Source: Halorarum salinum (GTDB taxonomy: Archaea > Halobacteriota > Halobacteria > Halobacteriales > Haloferacaceae). Taken from it: 64,000 nt of DNA. The stretch covers positions 3,410,001-3,474,000 of the forward strand of contig NZ_CP058579.1 of NCBI RefSeq assembly GCF_013402875.1. Direction: 5' to 3'. This document shows positions 20,290-28,251 of this stretch, piece by piece. The notes beneath the pieces are model-generated. The model saw only the letters and a list, made by a program, of their open reading frames with translations. It searched no databases and was not told the DNA's origin. Positions within the stretch are counted from its first letter, which is position 1. Each line of letters starts with the position of its first letter. The position numbers and the translations under genes were made by a program.

Positions 20290-21018
20290 TCACCCCGAAT
20301 CCAGCAACTTCGCCTCCGCCTTCCGCAAATGCTCCAGCACAGTCGCCTTCGAGACGTCCAGTTCACACGCCAACTCGGCCGCGGAAACCCCGCGCGGCCA
20401 CCCGTAGTACCCCCGACCCCGAGCTAACTCGAACACTTCCCGCTGGCGGTCCGACAGGGGGTCCTCCGGGAACAGGGGCGTCGGCCCCGCGTCGGGCGCG
20501 GTGATCCGCACCACCTCCACCGCAGCATCGGCCTCCTCGCGAACCTCCTCGAGTCGGTTGAAGACGGTCTCGCGCAGCTCGTCGGACAGCACCGCCCACC
20601 GCTCCCGGCCGTCGCGAATGCGCACCGGTGCGTCCGGAATCAGCCCCCGCGAGACCAGCGGGGACGCGATGCTCCGCGTCGGTTCGTACGTCACCAGCAG
20701 CCCGCAACTGGCGTTGCCCGGCGCGAGGTTACCCTGCTCCCAGACCGGCGAGGGCCGTCGGTCCGGAACCACCCGCACGGACGACGTCAGCGGCGAGGCT
20801 TCGATCCCGTCGACCAGTTCGGACACCGCTGCGGTCGTGTCGCCGAACGCCGTAAACCGGCCGATGGCGAGCCTGTCCACATCGTACACGCCGTGGCCGA
20901 GCAGGCTCCCCTCGGTCCGCTCGGTGACCTCGAGCGTCCAGCAGTCGGGGTGCCAGATGTCGAGGACGAGGCGGAGACACGTCTCCTCGCCCGCCCGATC
21001 CAGCGACGATTCGGCCAT
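20290..21018 (-). CDS. HTH_10 (bacterio-opsin-activator type) transcriptional regulator
   Basis: 242 residues. The C-terminal ~55 residues form the HTH_10 domain: PLSDRQREVFELARGRGYYG, PRGVSAAELACELDVSKATV, LEHLRKAEAKLL. This domain is typical of the many Bat-like regulators of haloarchaea. The N-terminal ~170 residues form a poorly conserved sensor region (LRLVLDIWHPDCWTLEVTER at the start) without a recognisable PAS or GAF motif. A TATA-like GTTTTATC lies about 27 bases before the ATG (21018). It is divergent from the gene pair at 21503. Its targets cannot be named. Confidence 0.85.
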   Translation of the reverse strand: MAESSLDRAGEETCLRLVLDIWHPDCWTLEVTERTEGSLLGHGVYDVDRLAIGRFTAFGDTTAAVSELVDGIEASPLTSSVRVVPDRRPSPVWEQGNLAPGNASCGLLVTYEPTRSIASPLVSRGLIPDAPVRIRDGRERWAVLSDELRETVFNRLEEVREEADAAVEVVRITAPDAGPTPLFPEDPLSDRQREVFELARGRGYYGWPRGVSAAELACELDVSKATVLEHLRKAEAKLLDSG

Positions 21019-21053: not shown

Positions 21054-21470
21054 GCCGATCCTGCCCCGGTCGACATGGGTGTGTAGCGGTGTTGGTCGCA
21101 TGGGTGCGAAAATCGTGGCGCGCGCCTCGCCTCTCAGTCGCCCCGAATGCCGAAATCCGTGCAGTTGGACGATGTCACTTTGAAGGAGAGAATAGAAACT
21201 CGAGTGCATGCGTTGGCTGCGGACGTATCTGTGGCTCCGGAGGTATCTGTCAGCAAATACCACTGGTAGGGTGCTGAGCTATAGAATCGTGCGTGTATCG
21301 TGAGCGAGCACAATGAGTGGCCGCTGAGGGTGGACGCCTGTTGGATCTCGTGCCCGGCAAACGGTTCCTGCTGACTGTGTACTCGTTCATCCGCCACAAT
21401 CGTCTTCCAGTTCTGCGAACTCGCAGATTCGGGGATGGCACCGAGGAAGCACGGATAGTTTTTTCAGGAA
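21054..21470. other. intergenic stretch, no gene recognised
   Basis: About 420 bases between the HTH_10 promoter and the promoter of the next gene. A frame continuous with the downstream gene runs back to 21317, but the residues before ATG 21503 are not haloarchaeal in style and the promoter spacing supports 21503. Nothing else recognisable. Confidence 0.35.
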
Positions 21471-21480
21471 ATTATTTGTT
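21471..21480 (+). promoter_or_regulatory. TATA-like element deciding the start at 21503
   Basis: AATTATTTGT within an AT-rich run (21460-21482) about 28 bases before ATG 21503. This placement argues for a leaderless start there and against the 62-codon upstream extension. Confidence 0.5.
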
Positions 21481-21502
21481 TCTCGGCGGCGTACTGACGC
21501 TG

Positions 21503-22021
21503 ATGACCGACGACACCAACTGGACAGACATCAACGAACGCGTAACCGAGGAGTGGAAGGCCGAGACGACGCCATTCGAGCGCATCTACGAGGTCCTCGA
21601 ACAGACTCATACCGGACAGTCTGCCGCCGAGATCGCCGAGCGCGCGCTCATGAGCGAACCAACCGCTCGCCGCCATCTGGACGCCCTCGTCTCGACCGGG
21701 TTCGCGGCCACCGAACAGGACGGCCGCACTACACTCTACCGGCGTGACGACGATCGCGTGCTGATGACACGAATCCGTGAGCTCCGAAACGAGGCCACCC
21801 GAGACGAGATTCTCGACGGCATCAGACGAATGAAAGCAGGGATTCGGGAATACGAAGCAGAGTACGATGCACTCTCGCCCGAAGAGCTGGCACGGCAATT
21901 ACCTACCGAAGCGACTGAGGAGTGGGAAGACGTCACAGCGTGGAAGACGACACGGCAGAACCTCGCAGTCGCGCAGGCGGCCCTCGCCTACGACGAGGCT
22001 AGCGAGCAGCTCACAGCGTGA
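21503..22021 (+). CDS. winged-HTH protein (DUF7342-like), likely antitoxin/regulator partner
   Basis: 172 residues from ATG 21503. An ArsR-like winged helix occupies about residues 28-85: FERIYEVLEQTHTGQSAAEI, ALMSEPTARRHLDALVSTGF, DGRTTLYRRDDDRVLM. The second half is helical and charged (MKAGIREYEAEYDALSPEEL), suited to dimerisation or partner binding. Its stop overlaps the start of the next gene by four bases (GTGA at 22018-22021), implying translational coupling. Haloarchaea carry many copies of such small HTH genes paired with a short downstream gene. An antitoxin-type autoregulator role is inferred from that architecture. Confidence 0.75.
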   Translation: MTDDTNWTDINERVTEEWKAETTPFERIYEVLEQTHTGQSAAEIAERALMSEPTARRHLDALVSTGFAATEQDGRTTLYRRDDDRVLMTRIRELRNEATRDEILDGIRRMKAGIREYEAEYDALSPEELARQLPTEATEEWEDVTAWKTTRQNLAVAQAALAYDEASEQLTA

Positions 22022-22467
22022 GCACCGACCGCTCCGGCGAGTTCGGAACAATCTACCTTCCCGCACTTCAACGCGTTCGGACGCTCTGGCTGGATCTCGA
22101 ACCAGAGGTCGCGGAAACGGGCTACGACGATCCTGTTCACCCCACGGAACTCCGAATCGAACTGACTGACGGACTCGGCGATGCCGACTCGGCGCGGTTC
22201 GACATCCAGTGGAGTACACTGGATAACTACTCCTTCCACTACGTCGACAGCACGGACGTCAACTGGCGATTCGATCGACATCCCAACACCCATTCTCCCG
22301 ACCGGCACTTCCATCCACCACCGGACGCTCGAACTGTCGACGCCGAACCGTCCAGTATCCACGTTCGAGAAGTCTCACTCGTCACGCGTGCAGTTCACAA
22401 AATGTGGCGTGTTGCCTACGAGAACGAGGATCGAAATCGACTCAACAGTGCTTCGAATCCTCCCTGA
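22018..22467 (+). CDS. hypothetical protein resembling TumE/DUF6516 toxins
   Basis: 149 residues from GTG 22018, overlapping the HTH gene by four bases. The central part FDIQWSTLDNYSFHYVDSTD, then NWRFDRHPNTHSPDRHFHPP and DAEPSSIHVREVSL follows the DUF6516 layout: a Y-x-F/Y-H-Y strand, a Trp/Arg-x-D-x-H/N-P segment, an F-H-x-H/P segment and a closing S-S/L-x-x-V turn. DUF6516 proteins (TumE) act as toxins next to HTH antitoxins in bacteria. It has no membrane segment. The assignment rests on this motif order by eye and on gene pairing; it could equally be a conserved partner of the regulator without toxicity. Confidence 0.6.
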   Translation: MSTDRSGEFGTIYLPALQRVRTLWLDLEPEVAETGYDDPVHPTELRIELTDGLGDADSARFDIQWSTLDNYSFHYVDSTDVNWRFDRHPNTHSPDRHFHPPPDARTVDAEPSSIHVREVSLVTRAVHKMWRVAYENEDRNRLNSASNPP

Positions 22468-22522: not shown

Positions 22523-23740
22523 CTACGCTCGACTCCAGAACTCCCGCTTCCACTCGGGGTCGACCAGCCGAATGAGCCCGACGGTCAGGGTGGGGATCGC
22601 GAACAGCGCGATGAAGAAGTACGCCATGATGGTGTATCCCTGCGCGACGAGCGCGATGATGCCGAACTGCGAGAGCAGCGTCGCGACGACCAGGATGCCC
22701 ACGCCGATGGCGCCGCTCTGGAGCGGCGTGAGCCCGTCGACTTTCTCGAAGCGTCCGGCGTCGATCTCCTCCAGGTCGGCGTCGACGCGGTGGATGATGG
22801 CGTGGATCGCCCCGACCGCCGTCTCGACGAGCGTCCACCCGATGACGACGCCGTAGAAGCCGATCAGCAGCGGGCCGCCGACCGAACTCAGCATGGGCAG
22901 CCACGGCACCTCCGCGCCCATCACCGACTCGTTCGGATAAAAGCCCATCAGACAGAGGTAGGTGAGCAGGAACGGGAGCGTCATCATGAGGCCGGCGAGC
23001 ACGCCCGAGACGACCGTCTCCTTGCGGGTCTCCTGCCTATGGAGCGCGAAGAACACCGCCGGGAAGATCGCCAGGTTGTAGCCGACGTAGAGGACGCCCG
23101 ACTCGAGCACCGCGCCCGTGCTCGCGTCGTCGACGTAGGCGGTGTTTCCGTTCGCCATGACGGTCGTCACGTCGCCCCAGACGGCCGAGAGGACGAGAAC
23201 GCCGAAGACGACGTACGCGAGGTAGAGAAAGCCCGTCCCGGCGGTCTTGAACCGCTCGATGAGGCTCGCCCCGAAGTAGGTGAGCACGCCGACGACGGCG
23301 ATGATCGCGACGATGCCCGCCAGGTAGGGGACGCCGAGCGTCTGTTGCATGATCTCCCCCGCGGCCGAGGCCATCACCGCGATGACGACGGTCGCCATCA
23401 CCACGAACAGGAGGTCGAACAGCGGCCACCCCTTCCAGATGATCTCGCGCATGTAGCTCTTGTAGTCGTACGTCCCGAACGTCCGGGAGAGGTCGAACAC
23501 GAGGATGGACATCACGGTGAACCCGAGGAAGATCGCCGCGACCGCGAGCAGTCCGGCCGAACCGAACTTCGCGCCGTAGGTGACGACCTCGCGGCCGCTC
23601 GCGTAGCCGCCGCCGATCAGCAGCGACTGCAGAATGATCGCCGGGAGGACGATCGACCCGAACCGCCCCTGCAACAGGCGGGCGAAGATGCTGATTGTGC
23701 GCTGGTCGCGTACCCCGTCCCCTCCTTCGTTTCGTGACAT
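22523..23740 (-). CDS. YkvI-family membrane protein (APC-superfamily permease)
   Basis: 405 residues with about 10-11 hydrophobic helices. The first helix region reads IVLPAIILQSLLIGGGYASG, with the unwound G-G-G-Y-A-S-G break typical of LeuT/APC-fold carriers; the next is REVVTYGAKFGSAGLLAVAA. Similar to Bacillus YkvI-type proteins, whose substrates are not established. It is divergent from the DgcN-like gene and shares with it a 26-bp perfect palindrome, so uptake of an amino acid or amino-acid derivative handled by that pathway is likely (inference). A minus-strand TATA-like GGTTATTACC about 28 bases upstream of the ATG supports the start. Confidence 0.75.
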   Translation of the reverse strand: MSRNEGGDGVRDQRTISIFARLLQGRFGSIVLPAIILQSLLIGGGYASGREVVTYGAKFGSAGLLAVAAIFLGFTVMSILVFDLSRTFGTYDYKSYMREIIWKGWPLFDLLFVVMATVVIAVMASAAGEIMQQTLGVPYLAGIVAIIAVVGVLTYFGASLIERFKTAGTGFLYLAYVVFGVLVLSAVWGDVTTVMANGNTAYVDDASTGAVLESGVLYVGYNLAIFPAVFFALHRQETRKETVVSGVLAGLMMTLPFLLTYLCLMGFYPNESVMGAEVPWLPMLSSVGGPLLIGFYGVVIGWTLVETAVGAIHAIIHRVDADLEEIDAGRFEKVDGLTPLQSGAIGVGILVVATLLSQFGIIALVAQGYTIMAYFFIALFAIPTLTVGLIRLVDPEWKREFWSRA

Positions 23741-23762: not shown

Positions 23763-23772
23763 GCGGTAATAA
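23763..23772 (-). promoter_or_regulatory. TATA-like element of the YkvI-like gene
   Basis: Minus-strand GTTATTACCG about 28 bases before ATG 23740; directly adjacent to the palindrome at 23773-23798. Confidence 0.5.
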
Positions 23773-23798
23773 CCACCCCCTCTCATGAGAGGGGGTGG
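23773..23798. promoter_or_regulatory. 26-bp perfect palindrome, candidate operator
   Basis: The sequence is self-complementary over 26 bases, with half-site CCACCCCCTCTCA and centre CATG. It lies almost midway between the YkvI-like start (23740) and the DgcN-like start (23830), just upstream of the TATA element of the former. A dimeric regulator bound here could control both genes. The Lrp-type protein at 27751 or the HTH_10 protein at 20290 are the nearest candidate regulators. Confidence 0.6.
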
Positions 23799-23829
23799 GA
23801 CTTTGGCCGGCACGCGACCAACACCCCTC

Positions 23830-24873
23830 ATGGACCTACGGGGCGCGTTCGACCCGCCGACGCCGGCCGTCGTCCTCGCGGAGGGCGCGTTCGGCGAGAC
23901 GGCGGGCAAGACGGCCAACGGCGTCGTGATGCACAGCGAACTGTTCGACGTGGGGGCCGTCGTCGACTCCGAGCAAGCCGGTCGATCGGCCGCGGACGTG
24001 CTCGGCCGGGCCGACGTGGCCGACGTGCCGGTCGTCGATTCGATGGCGGACGCCCTCGAGCGGGCCCCCGAGGCGGAGGCGCTCGTGATCGGCGTCGCGC
24101 CCGCCGGCGGCGCGCTCCCCGAGGAGTGGGTCGACGACATCCGGGAGGCGATGCGCGCGGGCTGTGACGTCGTCTCCGGGCTCCACGTCTTCCTGAGCGA
24201 GCGCGAGGACTGGGTCGAACTGGCCGAAGAGTGCGGAGTCCGGCTGTTCGACGTGCGCAAACCCCCGGCCGAGGACGACCTCAGGGTCGCGGACGGTCGG
24301 GTCGACGAGGTCAACGCCGACGTGGTGCTCACGGTCGGTACCGACTGCGCGGTCGGCAAGCGCACGACGACGTTCGAACTGTACCGGGCCGCCAAGCGAG
24401 AGGGGTTCGACGCGGGGTGGGTCGCGACCGGCCAGACCGGCATCATGGTCGGCGCCCACCGGGGGACCGTCGTCGACCGCGTCCCCGCCGACTTCGCGGC
24501 CGGCGTCGTCGAGGACGACGTCGCCGCGGTCGGTGCCGACCACGACCTCGTCTTCGTCGAGGGGCAGGGGGCGCTCACCCACCGGGCCTACTCGAGCGTA
24601 ACACTCGCGCTGCTGCACGGCGCCTGGCCGGACGCAGTGGTTCTCGTCGACGACCCCGACCGGGACAGTCGTACCCACTTCGAACAGTTCCCCATCCGGG
24701 GCGTCGGGACGGAGCGCGACCTCGTCGAGCGACTCTCCGAGGCCCGCGTCGCCGCGCTCTCGACCTGGGGCGACCCGGCGACGGAGAGCGACCGACACGA
24801 CCTCCCGACGGCGAACGTCTACTACGAGGACGGGCCGGCCGAGTTGCTGGCGGCGGTCAGGGAGGCGCTGTGA
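23830..24873 (+). CDS. dgcN: DUF1611 family protein, DgcN-like (D-glutamate N-acetyltransferase homologue)
   Basis: 347 residues from ATG 23830; 15 upstream codons in the same frame are ignored because the family start is MDLRGAFDPPTPAVVLAEGA. The DUF1611 layout is clear: an N-terminal Rossmann-like domain (ALVIGVAPAGGALPEEWVDD, GCDVVSGLHVFLSE) and a C-terminal P-loop-like domain (VVLTVGTDCAVGKRTTTFEL, with G-T-D-C-A-V-G-K-R/M-T-T; VFVEGQGALTHRAYSSVTLA). In marine bacteria DgcN acetylates D-glutamate for racemisation by DgcA. The next gene overlaps by four bases and encodes the DgcA-type enzyme, so the pair is conserved. Substrate in this archaeon is inferred. Confidence 0.8.
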   Translation: MDLRGAFDPPTPAVVLAEGAFGETAGKTANGVVMHSELFDVGAVVDSEQAGRSAADVLGRADVADVPVVDSMADALERAPEAEALVIGVAPAGGALPEEWVDDIREAMRAGCDVVSGLHVFLSEREDWVELAEECGVRLFDVRKPPAEDDLRVADGRVDEVNADVVLTVGTDCAVGKRTTTFELYRAAKREGFDAGWVATGQTGIMVGAHRGTVVDRVPADFAAGVVEDDVAAVGADHDLVFVEGQGALTHRAYSSVTLALLHGAWPDAVVLVDDPDRDSRTHFEQFPIRGVGTERDLVERLSEARVAALSTWGDPATESDRHDLPTANVYYEDGPAELLAAVREAL

Positions 24874-25997
24874 CCGGGGACGACGCCGTCGAGGATGAAG
24901 CCGCTGCGGACGAATCCACGGGGAAGGACGCGACGGCAGCGGGGGACCGCATCGTCACCGTCGACGTGGAACCGCTCGACCTCCGGATGGACGAGCCGTT
25001 CGAGATCGCGCTCGGCACCCAGCACCGCGCGCGAAACGTCATCGTTCGCGTGGAGACCGAAGCGGGAACGGTCGGCTGGGGCGAGGGATCGCCCATCCCA
25101 CCCGTGACGGGTGAGACGCAGGAGGCGGCGCTGGCGTCGGCCCGTGCGGCCGCGGAACTTCTCGAAGGGGAATCGGTGGCCGAGTACCACCGACTCGTGG
25201 ACGCGGTGCGCTCGACTGTCCCGGGGATGGTCTCGGCCTCGTTCGCCGTTGAGACCGCGCTGCTCGACGCCTACTGCCGGGCGAGGGACGTCCCGATGTC
25301 GGAACTGTTCGGCGGGCCCCCTGAGCCGGTCGAAACCGACCTCACTATCCCTATCGTCCCCCCGGAGGCAGCAGGTGAAGCGGCCGCCGAAGCCACAGAG
25401 GCCGGGTTCACCCACCTGAAGGTGAAGACGGGCGGGGCGGTGGACGCCGACGTGGAGCGGGTCGCCGCCGTGGCCGAGGCGGCGCCGGAGGCCGAACTGA
25501 AGGTGGACGCCAACCAGGGGTGGACGGTCGCTGAATCGGTCCGGTTCGCCCGCGCGGTCCGCGATCGGGACGTCGACCTCGCGCTCCTCGAACAGCCGGT
25601 GCGGGCTGACGACGTAGCCGGACTCGCGCGGGTCCGCGACGCTGTCGCCGTCCCGGTCGCGGCCGACGAGGCGGTATTCACCCCGGGGGACGCGCTGTCG
25701 GTCGTGCATGCGGACGCCGCGGACGTGATCAACGTCAAACTCGGCAAGTCCGGCCCCCTCGCTGCCGCCGAGATCGTCGCCATCGCGGAGGCCGCCAACC
25801 TGGAGCTAATGGTCGGCTGCATGCTCGAGTCGGCCGTGGGTATTCACGCGAGCGCACACCTCGTCGCCGGGTCGGGCGCGTTCTCGTACGTCGACCTCGA
25901 CGGGAACTTGCTGCTCGCCGAGGACGTCGTCGACGTGGAATACGGGCCAATCGTGGAGATCGACGGGCCCGGTCATGGCGTCGTTCCGAGAACGTAG
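24870..25997 (+). CDS. dgcA: enolase-superfamily epimerase, DgcA-like (dipeptide epimerase / N-acetyl-D-glutamate racemase type)
   Basis: 375 residues from GTG 24870, overlapping dgcN (GTGA). The first ~25 residues are acidic and low-complexity; family homology starts at VTVDVEPLDLRMDEPFEIAL. Active-site signatures of the Ala-Glu epimerase branch are present: catalytic K-x-K in HLKVKTGGAV, metal ligands in LKVDANQGW, LLEQPV and AADEAVF, and the second-base Lys in INVKLGKSGPL. GCMLESAVGI follows. Enzymes of this branch epimerise the glutamate moiety of dipeptides or racemise N-acetyl-glutamate; the coupling to DgcN favours the latter. Metal-dependent and cytosolic. Confidence 0.85.
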   Translation: MTGDDAVEDEAAADESTGKDATAAGDRIVTVDVEPLDLRMDEPFEIALGTQHRARNVIVRVETEAGTVGWGEGSPIPPVTGETQEAALASARAAAELLEGESVAEYHRLVDAVRSTVPGMVSASFAVETALLDAYCRARDVPMSELFGGPPEPVETDLTIPIVPPEAAGEAAAEATEAGFTHLKVKTGGAVDADVERVAAVAEAAPEAELKVDANQGWTVAESVRFARAVRDRDVDLALLEQPVRADDVAGLARVRDAVAVPVAADEAVFTPGDALSVVHADAADVINVKLGKSGPLAAAEIVAIAEAANLELMVGCMLESAVGIHASAHLVAGSGAFSYVDLDGNLLLAEDVVDVEYGPIVEIDGPGHGVVPRT

Positions 25998-27750: not shown

Positions 27751-28251
27751 TCAGGGGTCCGGCGAGAGGTCGAGCTGCTTCAGGGTCTCGATGTCGTAGT
27801 TCCGGAGCGGGTTCGGCTCCTCCTTGATCGTCGAGATGACGAATTTCGAGCTGGTCCGTTCGACGCCGTCGACGGCCTCGTACGACTCGACGAGGTCCTG
27901 GACGAACGAGCTGTTGGGGAGGTGGGCGGTGACGATGAAGTCCGTATCGCCCATCGTGAAGTAGACGCCCGAGACGCCGTCGATCGCGGCCAGCTGCGAG
28001 CCGACGGTCTCGTGGTACCCCTCCTCGTACTCGGCCATCACCTCCGAGATGACAGTGACCGAGAGGCCGAGGGACTTCGGATCGACCTCGAACAGGTCGT
28101 TCTCGATGACGCCGTCCTCCCGGAGGTTCTGCAGCCGGTAGTGGACGGTGGACTTCGGCGTGTCCGTCTCGTCGGCGAGGCGTTTGGGGCTGGCCTCCCC
28201 GATGTCGGCGATGGTCTTCAGTATCTCGAGGTCCCGGTCGTCGAGGCTCAC
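27751..28251 (-). CDS. Lrp/AsnC family transcriptional regulator
   Basis: 166 residues from GTG 28251, overlapping the stop of the hydrolase gene (GTGA), so it is the second gene of that transcript. N-terminal HTH_Asn[49 protein letters not shown]-terminal RAM effector domain: [40 protein letters not shown]. Lrp-type proteins sense amino acids and bind palindromic operators as dimers and octamers. Its position among amino-acid catabolism genes suggests it controls them. Candidate sites are the AATATT-centred elements at 27470 and 29532 and the palindrome at 23773. Confidence 0.9.

Follow-up and report, generated by a model that had tools for sequence, protein, structure and literature searches.

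Introduction

HTH_10 proteins are carried in large numbers by haloarchaea, in which leaderless transcripts are usual. The published consensus of the upstream activating sequence (UAS) of one of them, Bat, is ACCcnactagTTnGG. In marine bacteria, the dgcN-dgcA genes are under a LysR-type regulator. Bat and DmsR, the HTH_10 proteins whose roles have been reported, are transcription activators, and Bat has a PAS/GAF domain (PMC1447603); the UAS itself lies 5' to bop (PMC1502140). The locus described here was found in a 64,000-nucleotide stretch of the Halorarum salinum genome (contig NZ_CP058579.1, positions 3,410,001 to 3,474,000; the window), where the original prediction had singled out a long palindrome between two divergent genes as a strong operator candidate and had named an Lrp-type protein as its possible binder.

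Identity and rarity of the palindrome

The sequence CCACCCCCTCTCATGAGAGGGGGTGG, at positions 23773..23798, is a perfect palindrome of 26 bp that reads identically on either strand. Its arms, CCACCCCCTCTCA and TGAGAGGGGGTGG, are complementary at 13/13 pairs with zero spacer, so that every base does pair with its mirror, as had been claimed. No other perfect palindrome in the 64-kb window reaches 20 bp (the runner-up has 18 bp); base composition predicts 0.0035 palindromes of 26 bp there, and none of this length arose in 60 first-order Markov copies (0/60). The palindrome is thus not a product of chance. In the 4.26-Mb genome, the full palindrome occurs at a single place, even when 3 mismatches are allowed. 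Its inner 16 bp have one exact place and three others with 3 mismatches each, which lie inside an ORF, over the start of a hisH-like ORF, and upstream of an ABC-transporter ORF. The full pattern is found at four places in the same genome, two of the four being the palindrome at 23773–23798, and a search of the window for the half-site, allowing 2 mismatches, gave no further match.

Flanking genes and predicted core promoters

The palindrome is flanked on the right by a dgcN-like gene (DUF1611; 23830..24873, plus strand; Pfam PF07755/PF17396), which is probably leaderless and whose ATG at 23830 matches the start annotated by RefSeq for the Haladaptatus orthologue. The same operon contains a dgcA-like gene of the enolase superfamily (24870..25997, plus strand; PF13378/PF02746). 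The names dgcN and dgcA denote family-level similarity only, since neither protein comes near the curated cut-offs of NCBIfam: the scores are 190.9 bits against a cut-off of 480 for the DgcN family and, for the dgcA-like protein, 282.5 against 500 for L-Ala-D/L-Glu epimerase and 175.9 against 400 for DgcA as the best matches. On the left is a divergent gene for a permease-like membrane protein (22523..23740, minus strand), whose promoter is the second one at the palindrome and which is kept beside the site in three related loci (L050, L032 and L033). This protein could not be placed in any Pfam or NCBIfam family, and a PDB search with it gave no significant relative. A coding reading of the palindrome, with an in-frame ATG at its centre, was rejected: the dgcN start does not keep a constant frame relative to the dyad from locus to locus, and the ATG chosen by RefSeq for the Haladaptatus orthologue is the corresponding downstream one.

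The dyad is centred at 23785/23786, in keeping with its predicted location midway between the two start codons: 45 bp separate the centre from the ATG of the permease gene (23740), and 44 bp from that of dgcN. Reading outward from the centre, TGAGAGGGGGTGG is seen on both sides and leads into a TATA-like element whose TT occupies +17/+18. On the dgcN side, the putative TATA element is ACTTTG (23800..23805, plus strand; outward reading GACTTT), which contains this TT; on the permease side, at equal spacing, it is TTATTA (23767..23772, minus strand), which directly adjoins the palindrome and corresponds to the TATA box of the original prediction. TTATTA is also found in L032 and L033 and is degenerate in L050. 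The outer GGTGG bases of the palindrome adjoin both TATA boxes and differ between loci; the symmetry in the window extends to the full 26 bp because these flanking bases are symmetric too.

As the start codons are so near to the TATA elements, leaderless transcripts are implied, and the palindrome would therefore lie outside both of them. This bears on the idea that the palindrome arose by chance or acts as a terminator-like element or RNA hairpin. Its perfect, G+C-rich arms could fold; against this, it is located upstream of both predicted TATA elements, lacks a T-run, occupies a single genomic place at a very low chance expectation (see above), and is held at a fixed distance from TATA across genera (see below), which makes such an explanation extremely improbable. 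An intrinsic terminator or dispersed repeat was likewise rejected for an element that lies between two start codons, has no T-run and is present in one copy, and the palindrome is clearly not one of a widespread set of terminator-like repeats.

Conservation at dgcN orthologue promoters

Orthologues of the dgcN-like gene (64–86% identity) were collected at 41 loci from 170 genomes of the same family together with named haloarchaeal genomes; as these genomes are related, the counts across loci are not independent. A CC-N10-GG frame centred 43–50 bp before the start is present in 40/41 of the orthologue promoters, and the more complete CC-N3-YATR-N3-GG in 38/41. All of the latter (38/38 sites) share an invariant CC and GG, an invariant AT in the middle, and an invariant TT at +17/+18 downstream of the centre. 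At shifted offsets in the same promoters, CCN10GG is found in only 0.6% of cases on average. The dyad itself is also maintained, with 5.9 of 8 matches at the centre compared with about 2 elsewhere, and the arms covary, as in CCCTTTCATGAAAGGG of L041 and ACCTCTCATGAGAGGT of L032; 0.8% of the permutations that re-pair the arms reach the observed dyad score, which is a modest test as the loci are related. The motif was absent from all 20 promoters (0/20) of DUF1611 paralogues, which are more distant at about 50% identity.

The conserved core in the window is CC-N3-CATG-N3-GG, CCTCTCATGAGAGG, at 23779..23792 (no strand assigned). The conserved unit is therefore the inner 14–16 bp and not the 26 bp originally put forward, whereas the candidate operator itself holds up, with a site that is kept in relatives upstream of the predicted core promoters. 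The proposed comparison with other dgcN homologues recovered the site at nearly all of the orthologous loci, rather than revealing its absence in relatives with the same gene pair. Taken together, these sequence comparisons strongly support the reading of the palindrome as an operator.

Variant sites were observed upstream of dgcN in L065 and L067, where they read CCGGACATGTGTGG and CCGGATATGTACGG, respectively. The HTH_10 protein linked to them diverges in the last helix (SKTTLHEHLRKVE versus SKATVLEHLRKAE), a possible change of specificity.

Linkage to an HTH_10 regulator

Clustering of the neighbouring genes at the dgcN loci yielded one recurrent regulator family, HTH_10 (PF04967), with proteins of about 240 residues. 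The member in the window, a Bat-type regulator gene at 20290..21018 (minus strand; PF04967, E=1.7e-17), is the proposed binder of the palindrome. True orthologues score at least 266 bits against the profile, and other HTH_10 paralogues 162 or less. An orthologue is present within the fetched stretch at 21/41 dgcN loci, and in 10 of these it is adjacent to and divergent from dgcN. In L032, L033 and L050, the HTH_10 gene instead follows the divergent permease gene, adjacent and co-directional. At the genome level, a strong HTH_10 match occurs in 21/26 genomes with a dgcN orthologue, compared with 16/144 of the others. In the window, the promoter of the regulator gene itself lacks the motif.

A DUF7342 winged-helix gene (21317–22021) and further sequence (to 22467) separate the permease and HTH_10 genes in the window. 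The stretch 21317–22467 looks like an insertion in the lineage of the window, as the two genes are adjacent in L050, L032 and L033.

The five dgcN genomes without a strong HTH_10 orthologue (G053, G095, G126, G082 and G084) could point to another binder, either the Lrp-type protein (27751–28251) or an unlinked regulator. The site is kept in at least four of them (G126, G053, G082 and G084); the fifth, G095, without an HTH_10 match at E<=1e-55, contains the single locus that lacks CC-N10-GG (L054). Moreover, Lrp-type proteins bind palindromes, and the Lrp gene is less than 2 kb from the end of dgcA. However, its only close homologue (87%) is in the locus of a congener, L050, beside aminotransferase and M20 hydrolase genes, and a single further match was found at the other dgcN loci (L047; 23% identical, E 2e-6). 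The Lrp-type protein originally suggested as the binder is thus an unlikely regulator of this site, and an Lrp/AsnC operator was rejected as the Lrp gene is not conserved with the site. More generally, the motif is found again next to the HTH_10 gene in genomes without dgcN, and any binder other than the HTH_10 protein appears quite unlikely.

This recurrence was identified by a family-wide search, in which HTH_10 orthologues (at least 345 bits) were also found in genomes without a dgcN orthologue. In 19 genomes, 12 of them without a dgcN orthologue, the regulator gene is located beside an amino-acid permease gene (PF13520). The dyad is present upstream of this permease gene, centred at -45 in 18 genomes and at -44 in one, with a TATA element likewise placed. 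The regulator lies between two sites, one per target, in 4/19 of these genomes, while in G032 and G024 dgcN is on a different contig from the regulator and the site is still present. A blind scan of the 170 genomes for CCCTCTCATGAGAGGG with at most 1 mismatch gave matches in 22 genomes, at one place each; 20/22 of these places belong to dgcN or adjoin the HTH_10 gene. The motif therefore follows the regulator. The remaining two matches are at G021:C11:205175 and G071:C7:1102498. The former (205175–205190, or L110 1501–1516) reads CCCTCTCATGGGAGGG and is located just after a PII-like (GlnB) ORF, a possible extra target; an HTH_10 orthologue is present elsewhere in the G021 genome.

Proposed mechanism

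The palindrome is probably the UAS of the HTH_10 regulator encoded at 20290–21018, serving both the permease and the dgcN-dgcA promoters, to judge from sequence conservation and gene linkage. We infer that an HTH_10 dimer would bind CC-N3-CATG-N3-GG, with one half per subunit. The bound dimer would help TBP/TFB at the TATA element 17–19 bp away on each side, and would thereby activate both units at once, the permease gene to the left and dgcN-dgcA to the right.

The same protein may instead act as a repressor, which, bound at the palindrome, would block TFB or RNA polymerase at both promoters until released by an inducer. At both predicted TATA elements, the BRE region borders directly on the site and is touched by its outer arms, so that a bound protein could exclude TFB. 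On the other hand, the site has one fixed position directly upstream of TATA, both at the 38 full-motif dgcN sites (38/38) and at the 19 amino-acid permease promoters (-44/-45), which fits contact with the core machinery, and the HTH_10 proteins with reported function, Bat and DmsR, are activators (PMC1447603). Repression is therefore considered unlikely, and an activator that contacts the basal machinery is favoured because of the rigid spacing between dyad and TATA.

The AlphaFold model of the regulator (mean pLDDT 79) consists of two beta-alpha-beta units, followed by a C-terminal HTH. A fold search of the PDB with this model gave one significant but weak match, Ta1207 (5m86), on which a literature search found no paper. 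The tandem beta-alpha-beta N-terminal part of the model is probably the sensing domain. From the targets, the ligand might be guessed to be an amino acid or an N-acyl amino acid.

Implications and comparison with known systems

These results link a well-defined, conserved DNA site and a few genes of amino-acid transport and catabolism to an uncharacterised HTH_10 group, such that the inducer and the mechanism become directly testable in genetically tractable haloarchaea. We tentatively propose that HTH_10 proteins may share a simple site code, CC-N3-[four-base centre]-N3-GG placed some 17 bp ahead of TATA, in which specificity would be set by the centre, CATG for the present regulator and CTAG/CTGG for the Bat type. 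The present regulator would then be an amino-acid-sensing activator of transport and D-glutamate-type catabolism. If such a code is real, the binding sites of many uncharacterised HTH_10 regulators would be predictable.

Among known systems, the DgcN-DgcA D-glutamate pathway of marine bacteria has the same tandem DUF1611 and enolase superfamily families, but both proteins in the window are far below the NCBIfam cut-offs, and the archaeal substrate is only putative. DmsR, an HTH_10-like activator of the dms operon, has a C-terminal HTH similar to that of Bat and exerts positive control of a metabolic operon (PMC1447603), although the pathway is different.

Another close parallel is the Bat/bop UAS of Halobacterium, which also involves an HTH_10 regulator and a site immediately upstream of TATA. 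Many rhodopsin (bop-type) promoters of relatives (L131–L160) carry CCTGACTGGGTTGG-like sites, CC-N3-CTRG-N3-GG, about -48 from the start. The palindrome shares the CC-N10-GG frame with these sites, at -44/-45 instead of about -48. In contrast, the window has CATG at the centre (and 38/41 dgcN promoters have YATR there), compared with CTAG/CTGG in the Bat consensus and at the rhodopsin genes of relatives; since the CTAG centre is absent, the palindrome is not assigned to the Bat UAS proper. The symmetry is also much better here, the regulator at 20290–21018 has no PAS or GAF domain detected by Pfam, unlike Bat, and its targets are amino-acid genes rather than phototrophy genes. The present site also suggests that the layout of Bat-type sites is a general one, not confined to bacteriorhodopsin genes.
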